Part shown: in pieces, positions 10,767-19,929 of the stretch
How positions within the stretch are numbered: position 1 is the stretch's first letter
Layout: every line of letters begins with the position of its first letter
NCBI RefSeq assembly: GCF_008274805.1
Contig: NZ_CP022579.1
Span: 744,001 to 808,000 of the forward strand
Direction of reading: 5' to 3'
Origin: Oryzomicrobium terrae
Lineage (GTDB): Bacteria; Pseudomonadota; Gammaproteobacteria; Burkholderiales; Rhodocyclaceae
Length of the DNA stretch: 64,000 nucleotides
Made by a program: the position numbers and the translations under genes
The notes under the pieces: generated by a model
Told to the model about the DNA's origin: nothing
Seen by the model: the letters and a program-made list of their open reading frames with translations, nothing else
Database searches by the model: none

Positions 10767-12065
10767 TCAGGTCAGCATGTCGGCCCAGATGTTCTTGGCC
10801 CAGCCCAGGGCGATCTTCGCCTCCAGCTCGTTGCGCGCCGCCGAGACGCCACCGGCCCCGGCCACCGGCATCGGCTGCTTCTTCTCCGCGTCGTAGCGGT
10901 GCACCGAGGAGACGTGGATGACGCTCTTTTCGGCGACGAAGCTGTAGCAGGTGTTCATCACCACCGGCTCCGGATTGGGTTCCAGGCCGGACTGCAAGTT
11001 GATGATGGCGGCGGCGGCCACCTTGGCGTGCTGGTTGGCCATGTGTCCGGACTTGGGCATGGTGGGCGCCGGGAAGATGGCGTCGCCCAGGACATGGACC
11101 CCCGGGGTGTTGGTGGACTCCATGGTCAGCCAGTTGACGTCCACCCAGCGGTTGTTGATCAGCTTGAGGCCGGCCTTGGCAGCGATCTCGCCGGTGCGCT
11201 GGGGCGGGATGACGTTGAGCACGTCGGCCTTGACCTTGTCGAACTCGAGCAGGGCGGTCTTGCCGGCCACGTCCACGTCGGTGAGCTGGCTGTTCGGCCG
11301 GTACTCGACGATGCCCTTGTACAGGTCGTCCCAGGCTTTCATGAAGAGGCCCTTCTTCGAGGTCACCTCTTCGTTGGCGTCGAGGATCAGCACCTTGGAT
11401 TTGGGCTTCTTCGCCTTCAGGTAGGCGGCCACTACGCTGGCACGCTCGTAGGGCCCGGGAGGGCAACGGTAGGGGGCCTTGGGGATGGAGATGGCGAACA
11501 CGCCACCGTCCTTCATGTCCTCCAGCTGCTTGCGCAAGGCAACGGTCTGGGGGCCGGCCTTCCAGGCGTGCAGGATCTTGCCCTGGGCGTCGGCGTTGTT
11601 GAGGGCCGGTACCTGGTCCCATTGGAAGTCCACGCCGGGGGAGAGCACCAGCCGGTCGTAGGACAGGGTGCCGCCCTGGGCCAGGGTGACGGTGCGCTTG
11701 GCGGTATCCACCGCAGTCACTTCGTCCTTGATGACCCGCACGCCCCAGTGGGTCTTGAGGCCCTCGTAGGAGACGGTGATGTCCTCCAGGCCCTTGTAGC
11801 CGGCCACCACCAGGTTGGAGATGGGGCACGAGACGAAGTTGGCGTTGCGCTCCACCAGGGTCACATCGATGCCCCGGTCGCTCCACATGCGCAGGTACTT
11901 GGCCACGGTGGCGCCGCCATAGCCGCCGCCCACCACCACCACGTGGCCGCGGGCCTTGCTGGCACCGCCGGCGCAGGCCGTCAGGCCAAGGGTCGAGCCG
12001 GCCACGGAGGCGGCACCGGCTGCCTTGAGGAAGTCGCGTCGATTGAGTTGGTTCAGATTCGGCAT
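10767..12065 (-). CDS. fccB: Flavocytochrome c sulfide dehydrogenase, flavoprotein subunit
   Basis: Periplasmic sulfide-oxidising flavoprotein (SoxF when sox-linked). 432 residues. Tat signal N-R-R-D-F-L-K at 8-14; FAD motif VVVVGGGYGGATVAKYL (42-58). Three cysteines known from the Allochromatium enzyme align: C80 in FVSCPISN (covalent FAD attachment), and C201 (YRCPPGPYERAS) with C373 (NTCYSF), the redox disulfide. The C-terminal FCSD domain is complete. Its cytochrome partner lies 12 bases upstream in the same operon. Confidence 0.93.
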   Translation of the reverse strand: MPNLNQLNRRDFLKAAGAASVAGSTLGLTACAGGASKARGHVVVVGGGYGGATVAKYLRMWSDRGIDVTLVERNANFVSCPISNLVVAGYKGLEDITVSYEGLKTHWGVRVIKDEVTAVDTAKRTVTLAQGGTLSYDRLVLSPGVDFQWDQVPALNNADAQGKILHAWKAGPQTVALRKQLEDMKDGGVFAISIPKAPYRCPPGPYERASVVAAYLKAKKPKSKVLILDANEEVTSKKGLFMKAWDDLYKGIVEYRPNSQLTDVDVAGKTALLEFDKVKADVLNVIPPQRTGEIAAKAGLKLINNRWVDVNWLTMESTNTPGVHVLGDAIFPAPTMPKSGHMANQHAKVAAAAIINLQSGLEPNPEPVVMNTCYSFVAEKSVIHVSSVHRYDAEKKQPMPVAGAGGVSAARNELEAKIALGWAKNIWADMLT

Positions 12066-12077
12066 GGTCGCTCCCCC

Positions 12078-12401
12078 TTATTTCTGTGCGGCAAAGTAGT
12101 CGGCGATCAGGCTCAGTTGCTCGTCGGTGTAGCCCTTGCTGATCTGGTGCATGATCGTGGCCGGCTTCACGCCGGTCTTGAAGTCGTTGAGTTTCTGCAG
12201 GAGCTTGTCCCGGGGCGTGCCGGCCAGGGCGTCCAGGCCGGAGCCGGGCACGGCGTTGCCGTTGGTGCCGTGGCAGTTGGCGCAGGTCGCCGCCAGGTTG
12301 CGGCCCAGGTTCGGATCCTTGGCCAGGGCGCTGCCGCTGGCGCCGGCAAGGGCGGTGGCGGCGATCAGGGCCAGGGCCCATCGGTGCGACGAACGAATCA
12401 T
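12078..12401 (-). CDS. fccA: Flavocytochrome c small cytochrome subunit (monoheme)
   Basis: Periplasmic class I cytochrome c, 107 residues, with signal peptide (cleavage near ALA-K28) and one heme site C40-A-N-C43-H44. It belongs with the FccB downstream (12-base gap); the pair equals SoxE-SoxF in some sox clusters. Start ATG at 12401 with a strong AAGGAGGAAAC SD; an upstream in-frame extension to 12563 has no merit. The axial methionine is probably in PATIMHQ. Confidence 0.88.
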   Translation of the reverse strand: MIRSSHRWALALIAATALAGASGSALAKDPNLGRNLAATCANCHGTNGNAVPGSGLDALAGTPRDKLLQKLNDFKTGVKPATIMHQISKGYTDEQLSLIADYFAAQK

Positions 12402-12595: not shown

Positions 12596-12624
12596 TTGAC
12601 TATATAACTACATAGTTATAGATT
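12596..12624 (+). promoter_or_regulatory. Palindromic operator and promoter between fccAB and the ArsR gene
   Basis: Perfect palindrome TATAACTACATAGTTATA at 12603-12620 in an AT-rich island between divergent genes. On the plus strand TTGACT (12596-12601) with TAGATT 17 bases on (12619-12624) could be -35 and -10, so the palindrome would fill the spacer, a layout suited to ArsR-family repression. It could serve both directions. The palindrome is seen; the link to the regulator is inferred. Confidence 0.66.
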
Positions 12625-12669
12625 TAACGCACCAATCAACGAAGCACGTTATTCGGACTCTACGCTGTC

Positions 12670-13011
12670 ATGGACGAAGTCGACAAGGTGTTCGATGTAG
12701 TGGCTGAGTATTTCAGCCTGCTTTCGGACCCGACCCGTCTGCGGATTCTTCACTGCCTGTGCAACAGCGAAAAGCCGGTGCACGAAGTGGTGGATGCCAT
12801 CGGTCTGACCCAGGCCAACGTCTCGCGGCACCTCAGCCTGCTCTATCGAGCCGGTGTGGTGGACCGCCGCCGGGACGGTAACGAGGTGTTCTACCGGGTG
12901 GTGGACCAGAATTTCGTAGACCTGTGCCGCACCGTGTGCGTGTCGGTGGCCAGCCGGGCTGACCGGCTGCCGGCCGACGGCGCCGGCCTGTTCCCGGCGA
13001 GCGACGCCTAA
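12670..13011 (+). CDS. ArsR-family regulator of the sox/fcc cluster (candidate sulfur-responsive repressor)
   Basis: 113-residue winged-helix protein: EYFSLLSDPTRLRILHCLCN, the recognition helix TQANVSRHLSLLYRAGVV and the wing RRRDGNEVFYRV. It carries cysteines C29 and C31 in the second helix and C86 and C90 (DLCRTVC) in the C-terminal helix. SqrR/BigR-type ArsR proteins sense persulfides through a cysteine pair in equivalent helices, so a reactive-sulfur switch is plausible. It sits between fccBA and soxCDYZAXB and next to an 18-base palindrome. ATG at 12670. Signal identity is inferred from position and cysteines. Confidence 0.83.
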   Translation: MDEVDKVFDVVAEYFSLLSDPTRLRILHCLCNSEKPVHEVVDAIGLTQANVSRHLSLLYRAGVVDRRRDGNEVFYRVVDQNFVDLCRTVCVSVASRADRLPADGAGLFPASDA

Positions 13012-13111: not shown

Positions 13112-14497
13112 ATGAGTGAGCATCCGACACGGCCCGAAGGCGCCGGTCAGCGCCTGGGCAAGGTGCGCCCGGCCCCCGAGGGCTTTCTGAGCCAGGACGA
13201 TATCGCCGCGGTCAAGGCCGGCCGCCGGGATTTCCTGCGCGGCAGCTTTTCCGCCGCCGTGGCTGCCATGGGTGCCGGCGCCGCTGGCTTTTCCGGCCTG
13301 GCCCGGGCCGCCGAGGAGGGCGACTCCGCCATCCTCACCCTGCCGCCCTGGAGCACCAGCCTGGGCCAAGGGGTCGCCACCCGTCCCTACGGCCTGCCCA
13401 GCCAGTACGAAAAAGGCTTGATCCGCCGCGAATCGCCGGGCCTGACCCGGGTGTCCGGCTCGTCCGTGGCCTTCACCCCGTTGCAGGGCCTGTTCGGCAT
13501 CATCACCCCCTCGGGCCTGCACTTCGAGCGCCACCACCAGGGCTGGCAGGACATCGATCCGTCGCGCCACCGCCTGATGATCAACGGCTCCGATCCCTCC
13601 ATGGTCAAGCGGCCCAAGGTCTACACCATGGACGACATCCTGCGCATGCCGCCGGTGTCGCGCATCCACTTCATCGAATGCGGCGCCAACACCGGCATGG
13701 AGTGGGGCAACGTGGCGGTGCCCACCGTTCAGTACTCCCACGGCATGCTGTCCTGCTCCGAATTCACCGGGGTTCCCCTGCGCTGGATCCTGGAGGACTG
13801 CGGCGCCGACCTGAAGAAGGGCAAGTACATTCTGGCCGAGGGGGCCGACGGCTCGTCCATGACCCGCACCATCCCCATGGAACTGGTGCTGTCCGACGAG
13901 GTGCTGGTGGCCTACGGCCAGAACGGCGAAATGCTGCGCCCCGAGAACGGCTACCCGCTGCGCCTGGTGGTCCCGGGCGTCCAGGGCGTGTCCTGGGTCA
14001 AGTGGTTGCGCCGCATCGAGGTGGGCGATCAGCCTTACGCCACCAAGGACGAGGCGGTGCACTACATCGACCTGATGCCTAACGGCCAGCATCGCCAGTA
14101 CTCCTCCATCCAGGAGGCCAAGTCGGTCATCACCAGCCCCTCCGGTGGCCAGATGCTGCTCGACAAGGGCTTCTACAACGTCACCGGTCTGGCCTGGTCC
14201 GGCAGGGGCAAGGTCAAGAAGGTGGATGTCTCCTTCGACGGCGGCATCAACTGGAAGGAAGCGCGCCTGGAGGGCCCGATCCATTCCAAGGCCCTGGCCC
14301 GCTTCAACATCGGCTGGGTGTGGGATGGCAAGCCGGCGATCCTGCAATCCCGGGTCACCGACGAAACCGGCTACGTCCAGCCGTCCTACGGCCAGCTGCG
14401 CGCCGTGCGCGGCACCAAGTCGATCTATCACAACAACGCCATTCAATCCTGGAAAGTGGCCGAGAGCGGGGAGGTGTCCAATGTCCAGGTTCTCTAA
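13112..14497 (+). CDS. soxC: Sulfane dehydrogenase molybdoprotein subunit
   Basis: Molybdenum-cofactor subunit of Sox(CD)2, which oxidises the sulfane sulfur bound to SoxY. 461 residues from the ATG at 13112 (SD GGGGAG); an earlier ATG at 13082 lacks an SD. Tat motif G-R-R-D-F-L-R-G at 37-44. The sulfite-oxidase fold carries the Mo-binding C190 in HFIECGANTGMEW. The C-terminal dimerisation domain is complete. First gene of soxCDYZAXB. Presence of SoxCD predicts complete thiosulfate oxidation to sulfate without obligatory sulfur globules. Confidence 0.95.
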   Translation: MSEHPTRPEGAGQRLGKVRPAPEGFLSQDDIAAVKAGRRDFLRGSFSAAVAAMGAGAAGFSGLARAAEEGDSAILTLPPWSTSLGQGVATRPYGLPSQYEKGLIRRESPGLTRVSGSSVAFTPLQGLFGIITPSGLHFERHHQGWQDIDPSRHRLMINGSDPSMVKRPKVYTMDDILRMPPVSRIHFIECGANTGMEWGNVAVPTVQYSHGMLSCSEFTGVPLRWILEDCGADLKKGKYILAEGADGSSMTRTIPMELVLSDEVLVAYGQNGEMLRPENGYPLRLVVPGVQGVSWVKWLRRIEVGDQPYATKDEAVHYIDLMPNGQHRQYSSIQEAKSVITSPSGGQMLLDKGFYNVTGLAWSGRGKVKKVDVSFDGGINWKEARLEGPIHSKALARFNIGWVWDGKPAILQSRVTDETGYVQPSYGQLRAVRGTKSIYHNNAIQSWKVAESGEVSNVQVL

Positions 14498-15560
14498 GCT
14501 CGCCTGTGTTGCCCTGATCGGCGCCCTGGGTGCCACCTCGGCCCTGGCCGCCGGCAAGGGTGCGGCACCTGCTGCGCCGGTGCTCGAAGGCCTTGGCCGT
14601 CCCGCCACCCCGGCCGAGATCCGCGCCTGGGACATCGACGTGCGTCCCGACTTCAAGGGCCTGCCCAAGGGCCAGGGCTCGGTGGATCAGGGGCAGGAAG
14701 TGTGGGAGGCCAAGTGCGCCACCTGCCACGGCACCTTCGGCGAGTCGAACGAGGTGTTCACCCCGATCGCCGGCGGTACCACCGCCGACGACATCAAGAC
14801 CGGTCATGTCAAGAATCTGGGCCCCGGCTCCAGCTTCCCCCAGCGCACCACGCTGATGAAGGTGGCCACCCTGTCGACCCTGTGGGACTACATCAACCGG
14901 GCCATGCCGTGGACCGCGCCGAAGTCCCTCAAGACCGACGAGGTGTATGCGGTGCTCGCCTACATCCTCAACCTGGGTGAGATCGTGCCGGCCGACTTCG
15001 TGCTCTCCGACGCCAACATCGCCGAAGTGCAAAAGCGCATGCCCAACCGCAACGGCATGACCACCGATCACGGCCTGTGGCCGGGCAAGGGCATCGGCAC
15101 CGGCAAGCCGGACGTGAAGGCTGTGGCCTGCATGACCAACTGCAAGACCGAGGTGAAGATCGGCTCGACCCTGCCCGACTATGCGGAAGCCGCCCACGGC
15201 AACCTGGCCGAGCAGAACCGCACCGTCGGCGCCACCCGGGGCAAGGACATCAATGCCGCCAAGGGGCAGCCCGCCGCCGCGGCGGACAAGCCCTCGGCCA
15301 ACGCCCTGACCAGCCAACTGGCCCAGACCGCCGGCTGCACCGCCTGCCACGGCCTGACCAACAAGGTCGTCGGCCCGGGCTTCAACGAGGTGGCGGCCAA
15401 GTACAAGGGCAAGGCCGATGCGGAAGGTAAACTGGTCGCCAAGGTGAAGCAGGGTGGCGCCGGCGTGTGGGGGCAGATCCCGATGCCGCCGCAATCCCTC
15501 AAGGACGAGGAAATCAAGTCCCTGGTGCAGTGGATCCTGTCGGGCACCCCGGCAAAGTAA
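14481..15560 (+). CDS. soxD: Sulfane dehydrogenase diheme cytochrome subunit
   Basis: Periplasmic diheme cytochrome c partner of SoxC. 359 residues; signal peptide ending near ALAA24; hemes at C79-A-T-C82-H83 and C286-T-A-C289-H290. The two cytochrome domains are joined by a linker that includes an Ala-rich stretch (about 255-275). Its start overlaps soxC by 17 bases (SD GGGGAGG inside soxC), indicating coupled translation in a different frame. An extra cysteine pair (CMTNC, about 217-221) lies in the linker. Confidence 0.94.
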   Translation: MSRFSKLACVALIGALGATSALAAGKGAAPAAPVLEGLGRPATPAEIRAWDIDVRPDFKGLPKGQGSVDQGQEVWEAKCATCHGTFGESNEVFTPIAGGTTADDIKTGHVKNLGPGSSFPQRTTLMKVATLSTLWDYINRAMPWTAPKSLKTDEVYAVLAYILNLGEIVPADFVLSDANIAEVQKRMPNRNGMTTDHGLWPGKGIGTGKPDVKAVACMTNCKTEVKIGSTLPDYAEAAHGNLAEQNRTVGATRGKDINAAKGQPAAAADKPSANALTSQLAQTAGCTACHGLTNKVVGPGFNEVAAKYKGKADAEGKLVAKVKQGGAGVWGQIPMPPQSLKDEEIKSLVQWILSGTPAK

Positions 15561-15618: not shown

Positions 15619-16098
15619 ATGAGCATGAACGAGATGAACGCCCGCCGCGATGCCATGAAGAAGATGGGTGGCATGGGTTTCCTGGGCCTGCTGGCTGCCG
15701 CCGGCATGATCACCCCGCAGATGGCCCTGGCCGCCTGGAACAAGGGCGCCTTCGAAGCCAAGACCCTGGCCGACACCCTGAAGGCTCTGGGCGCCGGTAC
15801 CCCGGTGGAATCCAAGGACGTGGTGCTGAACGCCCCGGACATCGCTGAAAACGGCGCCGTGGTGCCGGTCTCCGTCACCAGCAACCTGCCCAAGAGCCAG
15901 CAGGTGGCGATCCTGGTGGAAAAGAACCCGAACGCCCTGACCGCCCAGTTCACCATCCCGGAAGGCACCGAAGCCAGCATCACCACCCGGGTGAAGATGG
16001 GCCAGACCTCCGACGTCTACGCCCTGGTCAAGTCCGACGGCAAGTTCTACATCGCCAAGAAAGAAATCAAGGTCACCCTGGGCGGCTGCGGCGGCTAA
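15619..16098 (+). CDS. soxY: Sulfur carrier protein SoxY
   Basis: Swinging-arm substrate carrier: sulfur intermediates are covalently attached to the cysteine of the C-terminal GGCGG motif (C157 of 159). The N-terminus has a Tat-like signal (NARRDAMKKMGGMGFLGLL) ending near ALAA. SD AGAGGAG precedes the ATG. soxZ follows after 62 bases; SoxY and SoxZ form a heterodimer exported together. Confidence 0.96.
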   Translation: MSMNEMNARRDAMKKMGGMGFLGLLAAAGMITPQMALAAWNKGAFEAKTLADTLKALGAGTPVESKDVVLNAPDIAENGAVVPVSVTSNLPKSQQVAILVEKNPNALTAQFTIPEGTEASITTRVKMGQTSDVYALVKSDGKFYIAKKEIKVTLGGCGG

Positions 16099-16160: not shown

Positions 16161-16472
16161 ATGGCTGATCCGATGAAAATCCGCGCCGCCAACAAGGACG
16201 GCGTCACCGAAGTGAAGATCCTCATGAGCCACGAAATGGAAACCGGCCAGCGCAAGGACGCGTCCGGCGCCATCGTGCCTGCCCACTTCATCACCGAAGT
16301 CACCGCCAGCTGGAACGGCAAGGTCGTGCTGCAGGGCGAATTCGGCCCGGCCGTGTCCAAGAACCCCTACCTGTCCTTCAAGTTCAAGGGCGGCGCCAAG
16401 GGTGAAAAGGTCACCGTGTCCTGGGTGGACAACAAGGGTGACAAGCGCAGCGACGAAGGCGTCATCGCTTAA
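16161..16472 (+). CDS. soxZ: Sulfur carrier partner SoxZ
   Basis: 103 residues, typical SoxZ (MADPMKIRAANKDGVTEVK; KNPYLSFKFKGGAKGEKVTV; ending RSDEGVIA). It has no signal peptide and presumably rides to the periplasm with SoxY through Tat. SD ACAGGAG precedes the ATG. A 124-base gap follows before soxA. Confidence 0.96.
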   Translation: MADPMKIRAANKDGVTEVKILMSHEMETGQRKDASGAIVPAHFITEVTASWNGKVVLQGEFGPAVSKNPYLSFKFKGGAKGEKVTVSWVDNKGDKRSDEGVIA

Positions 16473-16596: not shown

Positions 16597-17430
16597 ATGC
16601 GTAACCAACGCCCTGGCACCCCGAATGCTGCCCGCGCCTGGCTGATGGCCGGCAGCCTTGCCTTCCTGGCCACCGGCTCCGCCCTCGCCCAGGACAAATC
16701 CATGGACGAGATCGCCAAGTACCGCGAGATGCTCGCCGACGGCAACCCGGCCGAGCTGATCGAAATGCGCGGCGAAGAGTTGTGGAAGACCCCGCGCGGC
16801 CCCAAGAACGTCAGCCTCGAACAATGCGACCTGGGCCTCGGCCCGGGCAAGGTCGAAGGTGCTTACGCCCAGCTGCCGCGCTACTTTGCCGATACCGGCA
16901 AGGTGATGGACGTGGAGTCCCGCCTGGTGCACTGCATGCAGACCCTGCAGGGTTATTCCTTCGCCGAGGCGACCAAGAACTGGTATTCCAAGCCGGGCAA
17001 GGAATCGGACCTGGTGGCCCTGGTCACCTGGATCGGCGGCCAGAGCAACGGCCAAAAGATCAGCGTGCCGGCCAAGCACCCCAAGGAAGCCGAGATGGTG
17101 AAGATCGGCGAGTACATCTTCCATCGCCGCTCCGGTCCCCAGGATTTCGGCTGCGCCATCTGCCACGGCCAGGACGGTGTGCGCATCCGCCTCCAGGACC
17201 TGGACAACCTGTCCCAGCCCAAGGGCGCCCAGAAGGCCATGCGTACCTGGCCCTCCTACCGGGTGTCTCAGGGCACCGTGTGGACCATGCAGCGCCGCCT
17301 GATCGACTGCATGCGCCAGGCCCGCTGGCCGGAGCAGAAGTTCCCCTCCGACGCCGTGGTCGCCCTGGAAATGTACCTGCAGAACAAGGCTACCGGCGGG
17401 GTCCTCGAATCCCCGGGAATCAAGCGCTGA
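16597..17430 (+). CDS. soxA: L-cysteine S-thiosulfotransferase subunit SoxA (one-heme type)
   Basis: Catalytic cytochrome subunit of SoxAX, which couples thiosulfate to the SoxY cysteine. 277 residues with signal peptide (ALAQ-D near 33). One CxxCH heme site, C186-A-I-C189-H190, and the active-site/heme-ligand cysteine C238 in LIDCMRQARWPE, which becomes a persulfide in known enzymes. The N-terminal heme of diheme SoxA is absent; C77 and C113 remain, probably as a disulfide. SD GGAGGAG. soxX follows after 10 bases. Confidence 0.95.
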   Translation: MRNQRPGTPNAARAWLMAGSLAFLATGSALAQDKSMDEIAKYREMLADGNPAELIEMRGEELWKTPRGPKNVSLEQCDLGLGPGKVEGAYAQLPRYFADTGKVMDVESRLVHCMQTLQGYSFAEATKNWYSKPGKESDLVALVTWIGGQSNGQKISVPAKHPKEAEMVKIGEYIFHRRSGPQDFGCAICHGQDGVRIRLQDLDNLSQPKGAQKAMRTWPSYRVSQGTVWTMQRRLIDCMRQARWPEQKFPSDAVVALEMYLQNKATGGVLESPGIKR

Positions 17431-17440
17431 GGAGACGAAC

Positions 17441-18118
17441 ATGAGCCATCACACCCTGCGACTCCTGGCCGCCGCCGTGGCCGTCAGCACCATCCTGCCC
17501 CTGGCCGCCCACGCTGCGGATAAGGCCCCGGCCGCCGCCAAGCCGGCCAAGGCCGATCCCGCCCTGGTCGCCAAGGCCGAAAAGCTGTACCTGGATTCCT
17601 TCGACCCGGACCAGCCGCGCACCCACCTGGACCGCCTCAAGCAGGACGAGGCCATGGCCCTGTGCAGCCAGTACAAGGACAATCCCCCGGCAGCCGTGCG
17701 CGCCAAGATCGAAAAGGCCCAGCTGGAGACCATCCGCTTCCCGGTGGAAGGCCGCCTGGTGGGCGACTGGAAGAAGGGCGAGGAACTCGCCTCCTCCGGC
17801 CGCGGCGGGCACATCGGCAAGATCCAGCCCGACCCCAAGGGCACGGCCCGGGGCGGCAACTGCTATGCCTGCCACCAGCTGGCGACCAAGGAAGTGGCCT
17901 ACGGCACCATCGGCCCCTCCCTGCACAACTTCGCCAAGGTGCGCGGCTACGGCGAGGACATCGCCCGCTACGCCTACATGAAGGTGTACAACGCCCAGGC
18001 CTTCTCCGCCTGCACCAACATGCCGCGCTTTGGCTACCACGCCTGGCTGACGCCGGAGCAGATCGCCGACATCGTCGCCTTCCTGATGGACCCGGAATCC
18101 CCGGTCAACAAGGACTGA
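17441..18118 (+). CDS. soxX: SoxAX cytochrome subunit SoxX (long form)
   Basis: Monoheme cytochrome c subunit of SoxAX, 225 residues, longer than the roughly 130-residue short form because of an N-terminal extension (about residues 26-100: Ala/Pro/Lys-rich, then a helical part with C75). Heme site C141-Y-A-C144-H145, probable axial Met at M194 (ACTNMPRFG). Signal peptide ends near AHAA. An intrinsic terminator lies 23 bases after the stop, before soxB. Confidence 0.94.
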   Translation: MSHHTLRLLAAAVAVSTILPLAAHAADKAPAAAKPAKADPALVAKAEKLYLDSFDPDQPRTHLDRLKQDEAMALCSQYKDNPPAAVRAKIEKAQLETIRFPVEGRLVGDWKKGEELASSGRGGHIGKIQPDPKGTARGGNCYACHQLATKEVAYGTIGPSLHNFAKVRGYGEDIARYAYMKVYNAQAFSACTNMPRFGYHAWLTPEQIADIVAFLMDPESPVNKD

Positions 18119-18201: not shown

Positions 18202-19929
18202 ATGAGCATGAACCGCCGTGAATTCCTCAACATGCTGGCGGTAGCCGCCGCCGGCGGCTTCGCCTTGCACAGCGACTTCGCCCTGGCCGAAAAATCGGCG
18301 GCGAAGATGTACGACCTGCCGCGCTTCGGCAACGTGTCGCTGCTGCACATGACCGACTGCCATGCCCAGCTGAAGCCGATCTACTTCCGCGAGCCCAACG
18401 TCAATCTGGGCCTGGGCGGCCAACTCGGCCGGGTGCCGCACCTGGTGGGCGAATCCCTGCTCAAGCACTTCGGCATCCGCCCCGGCACCCTGGATGCCCA
18501 CGCCTTCACCTACCTGGACTTCGAAAAGGCCGCCCGCACCTACGGCAAGGTCGGCGGCTTCGCCCACCTGGCGACCCTGGTCAAGCGCATGAAGGCCAAC
18601 CGCCCCGGCGCCCTGCTGCTCGACGGCGGCGACACCTGGCAAGGCTCCGGCACCGCCCTGTGGACCAATGCCCAGGACATGGTCGATGCCTGCAAGGCCC
18701 TTGGCGTGGACATCATGACCCTGCATTGGGAATGCACCTACGGCATGGAGCGCCTCAAGGAGATCGAGGAGAAGGACTTCGCCGGCAAGATCGACATCGT
18801 CGCCCAGAACGTCAAGACCAACGACTTCGGCGACCCGGTGTTCAAGCCCTACGTCATCAAGCAGATCAACGGCGTGCCGGTGGCCATCATCGGCCAGGCC
18901 TTCCCCTACACCCCCATCGCCAACCCGCGCTACATGGTGGCCGACTGGACCTTCGGCATCCAGGACGACAACATGCAGAAGGTGGTGGACGAGGCCCGCG
19001 GCCAGGGCGCCCAGGTGGTGGTGGTGCTCTCCCACAACGGCATGGACGTGGACCTCAAGATGGCCTCCCGGGTGCGCGGCATCGACGCCATCCTGGGCGG
19101 CCACACCCACGACGGCGTGCCTGCCCCGGTCAAGGTCAGCAACGCCGGCGGCGTCACCCTGGTCACCAACGCCGGCTCCAACGGCAAGTACCTGGGCGTG
19201 CTCGACTTCGACGTCAAGAACGGCAAGGTCGCCGACTTCCGCTACAAGCTGCTCCCCGTGTTCGCCAACCTGATCCCGGCGGACAAGGCCATGGACGACC
19301 TGATCGCCAAGATCCGCGCGCCCTACGAGAGCAAGCTCGGCGAGCAGCTGGCCGTCACCGAAGGCCTGCTCTACCGCCGCGGCAACTTCAACGGCACCTT
19401 CGACCAGGTCATCCTGGACGCCCTGATGAAGGTCAAGGACGCCGAGATCGCCTTCTCCCCCGGTTTCCGCTGGGGCACCTCGCTGCTGCCCGGTCAGGCC
19501 ATCACCATGGAGCACGTGCTCGACCAGACCGCCATCACCTACCCCTACACCACCGTCACCAACATGACCGGGGAGATGATCAAGACCGTGCTCGAAGACG
19601 TCTGCGACAACCTCTTCAACCCGGACCCTTACTACCAGCAGGGCGGCGACATGGTGCGGGTGGGCGGCCTGCAATACACCTGCGACCCCACCGCCAAGAT
19701 GGGCGGCCGCATCCAGGACATGCGCCTCAACGGCAAGCCCATCGACCCGGCCAAGACCTACAAGGTCGCCGGTTGGGCCCCGGTGGCCGAAGAAGCCAAG
19801 GCCGCCGGCGGCGAACCGATCTGGGACGTGGTGGCCGGCTACCTGCGCAGCATCAAGACCGTGAAACCCGTGGCCCTCAACCTGCCCAAGCTGAAGGGCG
19901 TGGACGGCAACCCGGGGATGGTGGGTTGA
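18202..19929 (+). CDS. soxB: S-sulfosulfanyl-L-cysteine sulfohydrolase (thiosulfohydrolase)
   Basis: Dimanganese hydrolase releasing sulfate from SoxY-bound S-sulfonate. 575 residues with a Tat-like N-terminus (N-R-R-E-F-L). Metal ligands of the 5'-nucleotidase superfamily are visible: D52 and H54 (MTDCHAQ), D144 (GGDTW), N203 (QNVKT), H278 (SHNGMD), and H301 and H303 (GGHTHDG). The C-terminal nucleotidase domain is complete. SD GGAAGGGAC is weak. Last gene of the sox run, behind the terminator at 18142. Confidence 0.97.
   Translation: MSMNRREFLNMLAVAAAGGFALHSDFALAEKSAAKMYDLPRFGNVSLLHMTDCHAQLKPIYFREPNVNLGLGGQLGRVPHLVGESLLKHFGIRPGTLDAHAFTYLDFEKAARTYGKVGGFAHLATLVKRMKANRPGALLLDGGDTWQGSGTALWTNAQDMVDACKALGVDIMTLHWECTYGMERLKEIEEKDFAGKIDIVAQNVKTNDFGDPVFKPYVIKQINGVPVAIIGQAFPYTPIANPRYMVADWTFGIQDDNMQKVVDEARGQGAQVVVVLSHNGMDVDLKMASRVRGIDAILGGHTHDGVPAPVKVSNAGGVTLVTNAGSNGKYLGVLDFDVKNGKVADFRYKLLPVFANLIPADKAMDDLIAKIRAPYESKLGEQLAVTEGLLYRRGNFNGTFDQVILDALMKVKDAEIAFSPGFRWGTSLLPGQAITMEHVLDQTAITYPYTTVTNMTGEMIKTVLEDVCDNLFNPDPYYQQGGDMVRVGGLQYTCDPTAKMGGRIQDMRLNGKPIDPAKTYKVAGWAPVAEEAKAAGGEPIWDVVAGYLRSIKTVKPVALNLPKLKGVDGNPGMVG

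Follow-up and report, generated by a model that had tools for sequence, protein, structure and literature searches.

In this study, we identified a predicted transcriptional repressor of the ArsR family in a stretch of 64,000 nucleotides of the Oryzomicrobium terrae genome (the window), encoded beside the genes for sulfide and thiosulfate oxidation. On balance, we consider this protein to be an autoregulating repressor of the betaproteobacterial sox genes that is not an orthologue of the alphaproteobacterial SoxR, has its own thiol site on helices alpha-2 and alpha-5 and is probably released from DNA by sulfane sulfur. Its putative action as a sox repressor through the operator listed in Table 1 is well supported by the comparison of related loci. 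The preliminary description of this locus was right about the existence of both the regulator and the operator, but placed the protein in the wrong branch of the family and gave weight to a lineage-specific cysteine.

The arsR-sox locus and its predicted operator

The arsR gene had been described as controlling divergent fccAB and sox operons. It lies between fccAB and soxCDYZAXB, and this arrangement was confirmed by Pfam matches for all of the genes except soxB, which was assigned by orthology. An Oryzomicrobium MAG contig encodes the identical 113-aa ArsR protein (100% identity), and the adjoining genes are 86-98% identical.

Table 1. Coordinates of the genes and predicted regulatory sites in the window.
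Feature	Position	Strand	Evidence
fccB, flavoprotein subunit	10767..12065	-	PF21706 and PF09242
fccA, cytochrome subunit of flavocytochrome c sulfide dehydrogenase, divergent	12078..12401	-	cytochrome c domain; FccA neighbour conserved in related loci
sigma-70-like promoter of arsR-sox, TTGACT / 17-nt spacer / TAGATT	12596..12624	+	sequence
predicted operator, 24 bp, CTATATAACTAC/ATAGTTATAGAT, core palindrome 12603-12620	12600..12623		comparative motif
arsR-family repressor gene, 113 aa, C29/C31/C86/C90	12670..13011	+	ORF, family models, AlphaFold2 model
soxC	13115..14497	+	Pfam and related loci
soxD, two cytochrome c domains	14505..15560	+	Pfam and related loci
soxY	15619..16098	+	PF13501
soxZ	16161..16472	+	PF08770
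soxA	16597..17430	+	PF21342
soxX	17441..18118	+	cytochrome c domain and sox order
soxB	18202..19929	+	ORF; orthology and order across sox clusters, without Pfam support

The core of the operator, TATAACTACATAGTTATA, consists of two 8-bp arms that match exactly around a 2-bp centre. It had been called a perfect 18-bp palindrome; the arms are indeed exact, but the two central bases, CA, are not self-complementary (16/18), and the description as perfect was rejected. The claim that the palindrome overlaps the candidate promoter of arsR itself held. The operator fills the 17-nt spacer between the -35 element TTGACT (12596-12601) and the -10 element TAGATT (12619-12624), and this sigma-70-like site was the only promoter-like site between 12380 and 13130 (shuffle mean 0.2). 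The same scan found no promoter for fccA on the minus strand. Only a single place in the genome, which is one contig of 3.53 Mb, lies within 3 mismatches of TATAACTANNTAGTTATA, and the shuffled window gave none.

A search for the palindromic motif near the sox and fcc genes of related genomes had been proposed and was carried out here. The upstream regions of 53 relatives (about 50 genomes) that bear C31 were used to train a palindromic 24-bp motif, and each locus was scored with its close kin left out. The site was present in 43 of the 53 loci, and in 38 of these it outscored every one of 60 shuffles of the upstream region of that locus. The sites mostly lay 50-150 nt upstream of a fixed point close to the protein start. 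Its consensus across the relatives is TATATGCGCATATGCGCATATA. When this genus was left out of the motif, the window site scored 25.3 bits and was the sole strong site in the 64 kb (the next scored 9.4); it aligns in register with those of 42 other loci, Azoarcus and Dechloromonas among them. The consensus form ATATGCGCA-N2-TGCGCATAT had no match in the window within 3 mismatches, which is explained by the AACTA variant of the half-site in Oryzomicrobium; this variant is also found in the sister clade described below. Of 14 Rhodocyclales-type loci examined, 13 have TTGA immediately 5' of the operator. Taken together, there is strong comparative evidence for a conserved predicted operator inside the arsR-sox promoter.

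Further sites above 13 bits were rare, with only 15 in 630 kb of related loci: nine between arsR and soxC (all in Oxalobacteraceae), a pair immediately upstream of soxB, a pair in front of a yeeE sulfur-transporter gene in Rugamonas, and two elsewhere. The 5' flank of the stronger Rugamonas site ends 38 nt before the ATG. A 15.7-bit operator-like site was observed in Herbaspirillum (L046, 2459-2482), about 30 nt upstream of a fructose-bisphosphatase-like gene that is followed by phosphoribulokinase; this single case possibly links sulfur oxidation to CO2 fixation.

soxC lies directly downstream of the C31-type arsR in 42 of the 53 loci (a count that takes in L008, L010 and L035), and other members lie within sox clusters (L040, L044) or beside Sulf_transp genes of the YeeE family (L060, L063 and L074; nearby in L043 and L048). 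The C31-type arsR is not required for sox, since soxC occurs without it alongside in several relatives (L110, L112, L114). Two MAG contigs, L040 and L050, are titled Klebsiella pneumoniae and Bordetella parapertussis and carry sox clusters of betaproteobacterial type; these labels are probably wrong.

The proposed coordination of Sox and Fcc is supported for sox by the adjoining soxC and the conserved operator, and control of fccAB is suggested by position. The fccA-arsR intergenic region contains a single operator, which in 14 loci lies 128-212 bp from fccA. A separate second operator for fccA was considered and rejected, as no site above 13 bits was found near fccA in the related loci. In L018-L026, a second conserved block, approximately TTGCGNCGCA(A)CAATATTAG, lies about 10-30 bp from the operator in the direction of fccA, and may be the fccA promoter or the site of an activator. 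In the Dechloromonas-type loci (L020-L026; L023, 8960-9000), the stretch from the operator to the arsR start contains an FNR/ANR-like box, TTGAT-N4-ATCAA, so sox in these bacteria may respond to oxygen as well. This box is absent in Oryzomicrobium.

Cysteines and family placement of the ArsR protein

The translated reading frame agrees with the earlier account of a 113-aa ArsR protein, with cysteines at positions 29, 31, 86 and 90 only. It scored above the cut-offs of Pfam HTH_5 (51.2 bits against 22) and NCBIfam ArsR/SmtB NF033788 (87.4 bits against 55). The AlphaFold2 model (mean pLDDT 88.1, 75-row alignment) adopts a winged-helix fold in which alpha-5 follows the wing, and resembles many ArsR proteins (Z 12-15). 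In this model, alpha-2 spans residues 21-30 and alpha-5 residues 80-96. The cysteines had been placed in helices 2 and 5, which is correct for C29 in alpha-2 and for C86 and C90 in alpha-5, but C31 is the first residue past alpha-2.

C31 and C86 were present in all 53 members and C90 in 46. Among 38 representatives of less than 90% identity, C31 and C86 were conserved at 100% and C90 at 95%, which is the level of the DNA-binding core. Over positions 29, 31, 86 and 90, the pattern was xCCC in 40 members, CCCC in six and CCCS in seven. C29 was found in 13 of the 53 members, all of Rhodocyclales type and confined to a part of that order. The seven loci in which C90 is replaced by Ser belong to Dechloromonas and its close kin, keep sox, and encode the sisters of the Oryzomicrobium protein in the tree (99/96). 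The doubled cysteines had been read as two pairs, as opposed to the single pair of SqrR. A second pair as a conserved unit is ruled out by these counts; the conserved set is C31/C86/C90. C29 is thus best described, from the alignment of relatives, as a Rhodocyclales addition to a putative three-thiol site and not as half of a second pair.

The assignment to the SqrR/BigR type failed in four tests, namely both cysteine places, the BigR cut-off and the tree. In the structural alignment with reduced SqrR (6o8k; 93 residues, model 3-95 on 16-108), C41 fell on H28 and C107 on A94, so that all four cysteines lie away from the SqrR positions. Sequence alignment also put C41 at H28, where the nearest cysteines are C29 (+1) and C31 (+3). 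On alpha-5, C86 precedes A94 by two turns and C90 by one, and these three places share one face of the helix. C38 and C104 of HlyU (4ooi; 95 residues, model 1-95 on 11-105) fell on H28 and A94 too. The protein scored 48.3 bits with the NCBIfam BigR equivalog (cut-off 155) and 44.4 bits with CmtR, a Cd/Pb sensor (cut-off 150). TsoR was rejected as well (53.7 bits against 115). There is no cysteine between residues 32 and 85, and the vicinal Cys-Cys of RexT in alpha-3 is therefore absent.

The nearest solved protein by sequence was Rv0081 (1.2e-13), while SqrR was matched at 5.6e-6; in comparison, the soxSRT-linked alphaproteobacterial SoxR of Ruegeria matched SqrR at 5e-37. The soxSRT comparators came from Ruegeria and Paracoccus plasmids, and the plasmid matches H1, H4, H16 and H27 carry soxC without soxSRT. 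Clade membership was first drawn by C31; the clade has no member without C31, because a tree calculated with the Cys columns removed recovered the same rows as one clade (95/88). SqrR, SoxR, BigR, HlyU and YgaV stood apart in this tree (99/98), and a topology that placed alphaproteobacterial SoxR and SqrR inside the C31 clade was rejected (p-AU 0.003). The deeper branching is uncertain because the alignment has only 113 columns. These comparisons contradict membership of the predicted Oryzomicrobium regulator in the SqrR/BigR/SoxR group of persulfide sensors. Elsewhere in the genome, two paralogues of canonical BigR/SqrR type (L002 and L003) have a Cys at place 28; L002 (genome 548704-548961) has a rhodanese-like match and a glutaredoxin-like gene downstream.

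Previously described systems resemble the Oryzomicrobium protein only in part. The persulfide sensors SqrR, BigR, HlyU and YgaV (SSN cluster 4) share its fold and the location of cysteines on alpha-2 and alpha-5, but differ in the cysteine places, the sequence cluster and the family model scores. The SoxR proteins of Hyphomicrobium, Paracoccus and Pseudaminobacter likewise have the ArsR fold, a gene beside the sox cluster, alpha-2/alpha-5 thiols and a presumed repression that is lifted by reduced sulfur. However, SoxR uses Cys50 and Cys116, the equivalents of Cys41 and Cys107 of SqrR (PMC10451225), whose places are H28 and A94 in Oryzomicrobium, and the tree does not make the two orthologous. 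According to one report (PMC11582611), SoxR always occurs together with SoxT, whereas the two Sulf_transp genes of the Oryzomicrobium genome are both outside the window. Rv0081 of Mycobacterium tuberculosis (SSN cluster 3), which ranked first in Foldseek as well (8.1e-7), is from another organism, has a link to hypoxia (PMC10509353) and contains no cysteine in the matched stretch. All characterized ArsR sensors of sulfane sulfur are said to share one Cys pair and one cluster (PMC10509353, PMC12423496); the persulfide-sensing proteins known so far all fall in a single sequence cluster, and the Rv0081 cluster is largely uncharacterized (PMC10509353). Many ArsR proteins near the shdr sulfur-oxidation genes do not have that pair and may work differently (PMC12423496). 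No literature on the betaproteobacterial sox ArsR family was found in a search that covered mainly papers outside subscription journals, so this absence is weak evidence.

In the tree, the C31 clade is sister to a clade (99/96) from Burkholderiales that has C86 and C90 without C31. The two have the operator layout and the alpha-5 CxxxC in common, and some sister-clade operators are near copies of the window site (L016, TTATGTAACTATGTAGTTATATAG). In contrast, the genes of the sister clade are divergent from RND pump and membrane-fusion genes, which most of them flank, and not from sox. C31 tracks the sulfur context, marking the sox/YeeE-linked clade as opposed to the pump-linked clade, because its bearers adjoin sox or YeeE genes and the C86/C90-only members RND pumps. 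In Ideonella paludis (L063, 6085-9333), a membrane-fusion gene, a C86/C90-type arsR, yeeE and a C31-type arsR follow in order, so that both sister regulators flank one transporter. In Limnohabitans (L072, 9400-12111), a CsoR-family repressor and, at a greater distance, a rhodanese come after the pump-linked arsR; this is a hint that the pump-linked clade, too, has a connection to sulfur.

Proposed mechanism and alternatives

In the proposed mechanism, a dimer of the ArsR protein would bind the 24-bp operator between the -35 and -10 elements of the arsR-soxCDYZAXB promoter, blocking RNA polymerase, keeping sox and arsR off. We infer repression rather than activation because the operator sits inside the promoter spacer. 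Sulfane sulfur formed during sulfide or thiosulfate oxidation would then probably modify C31, at the end of alpha-2, or bridge it with C86 and C90 of alpha-5; this modification would free the DNA and turn sox on. Sulfane sulfur is suggested as the inducer by the gene context and by Hyphomicrobium SoxR (PMC10451225), and the bridge partners are suggested by their conservation and by the alpha-5 face that C86 and C90 share with place 94. While bound there, the dimer may in addition repress the promoter of the divergent fccAB genes, because there is a single shared operator in the intergenic region. The identity of the inducer is thus argued from the neighbouring genes and the control of fccAB from position.

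The majority of characterized ArsR proteins bind metals. A metal- or metalloid-responsive protein, in which C31/C86/C90 would form a trithiolate site and the place before sox would reflect another signal, is unlikely but has an appreciable chance. Three conserved thiols would suit a metal(loid) site as well, atypical As(III) sensors with all of their Cys ligands on alpha-5 are known from an SSN survey (PMC10509353), and the sister clade that keeps C86/C90 flanks RND efflux pumps. However, the neighbouring genes are sox, fcc or YeeE sulfur genes and not metal genes, C31 separates the sulfur-linked from the pump-linked clade, and C90 has become Ser in the seven Dechloromonas-type loci that keep sox.

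There is a slim chance that the protein is an ordinary persulfide sensor of the SqrR/BigR/SoxR type merely with extra cysteines, as the common fold (Z 14.9 to SqrR 6o8o), target genes like those of alphaproteobacterial SoxR and cysteines on alpha-2 and alpha-5 might suggest. Against this stand the places of C41 and C107, the low BigR score, the closer match to Rv0081 than to SqrR (which genuine SoxR matches so strongly), the rejected grouping with SoxR and SqrR and the two canonical-type paralogues in the same genome. It is very improbable that the protein senses peroxide or the general thiol-redox state by a RexT-like disulfide switch instead of sulfane sulfur. RexT shows that the fold supports such a switch, and C86-x3-C90 in one helix and C29-x-C31 at another could form disulfides, but the cysteines of RexT are vicinal and in alpha-3 (PMC8960804), an arrangement absent here, and the linkage to sulfur oxidation genes also argues against it.

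Under the preferred reading of a sox repressor with its own thiol site, the system is a possible second, independently evolved sulfur switch, because its cysteine places differ from those of all well-studied sulfur-sensing relatives. We only tentatively suggest, at somewhat less than even confidence, that sulfane-sulfur sensing arose here independently of the known persulfide branch by the addition of C31 to an older alpha-5 C86-x3-C90, and that in Rhodocyclales a thiol is moving from C90 to C29, that is, from alpha-5 to alpha-2. The four-cysteine protein of Oryzomicrobium would then perhaps be an intermediate, because C29 accompanies the loss of C90 in Dechloromonas.

The results presented here provide a concrete alternative thiol site, C31/C86/C90, together with a defined operator, in a family encoded before soxC in dozens of Betaproteobacteria. 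Cultured genera with this sox-linked C31-type ArsR include Cupriavidus, Pandoraea and Dechloromonas. The family also calls for caution against naming every sox-linked ArsR protein 'SoxR'. Because of the alternative site, the defined operator and the natural variants (gain of C29, loss of C90), the question of sulfur sensing in this family is directly testable.
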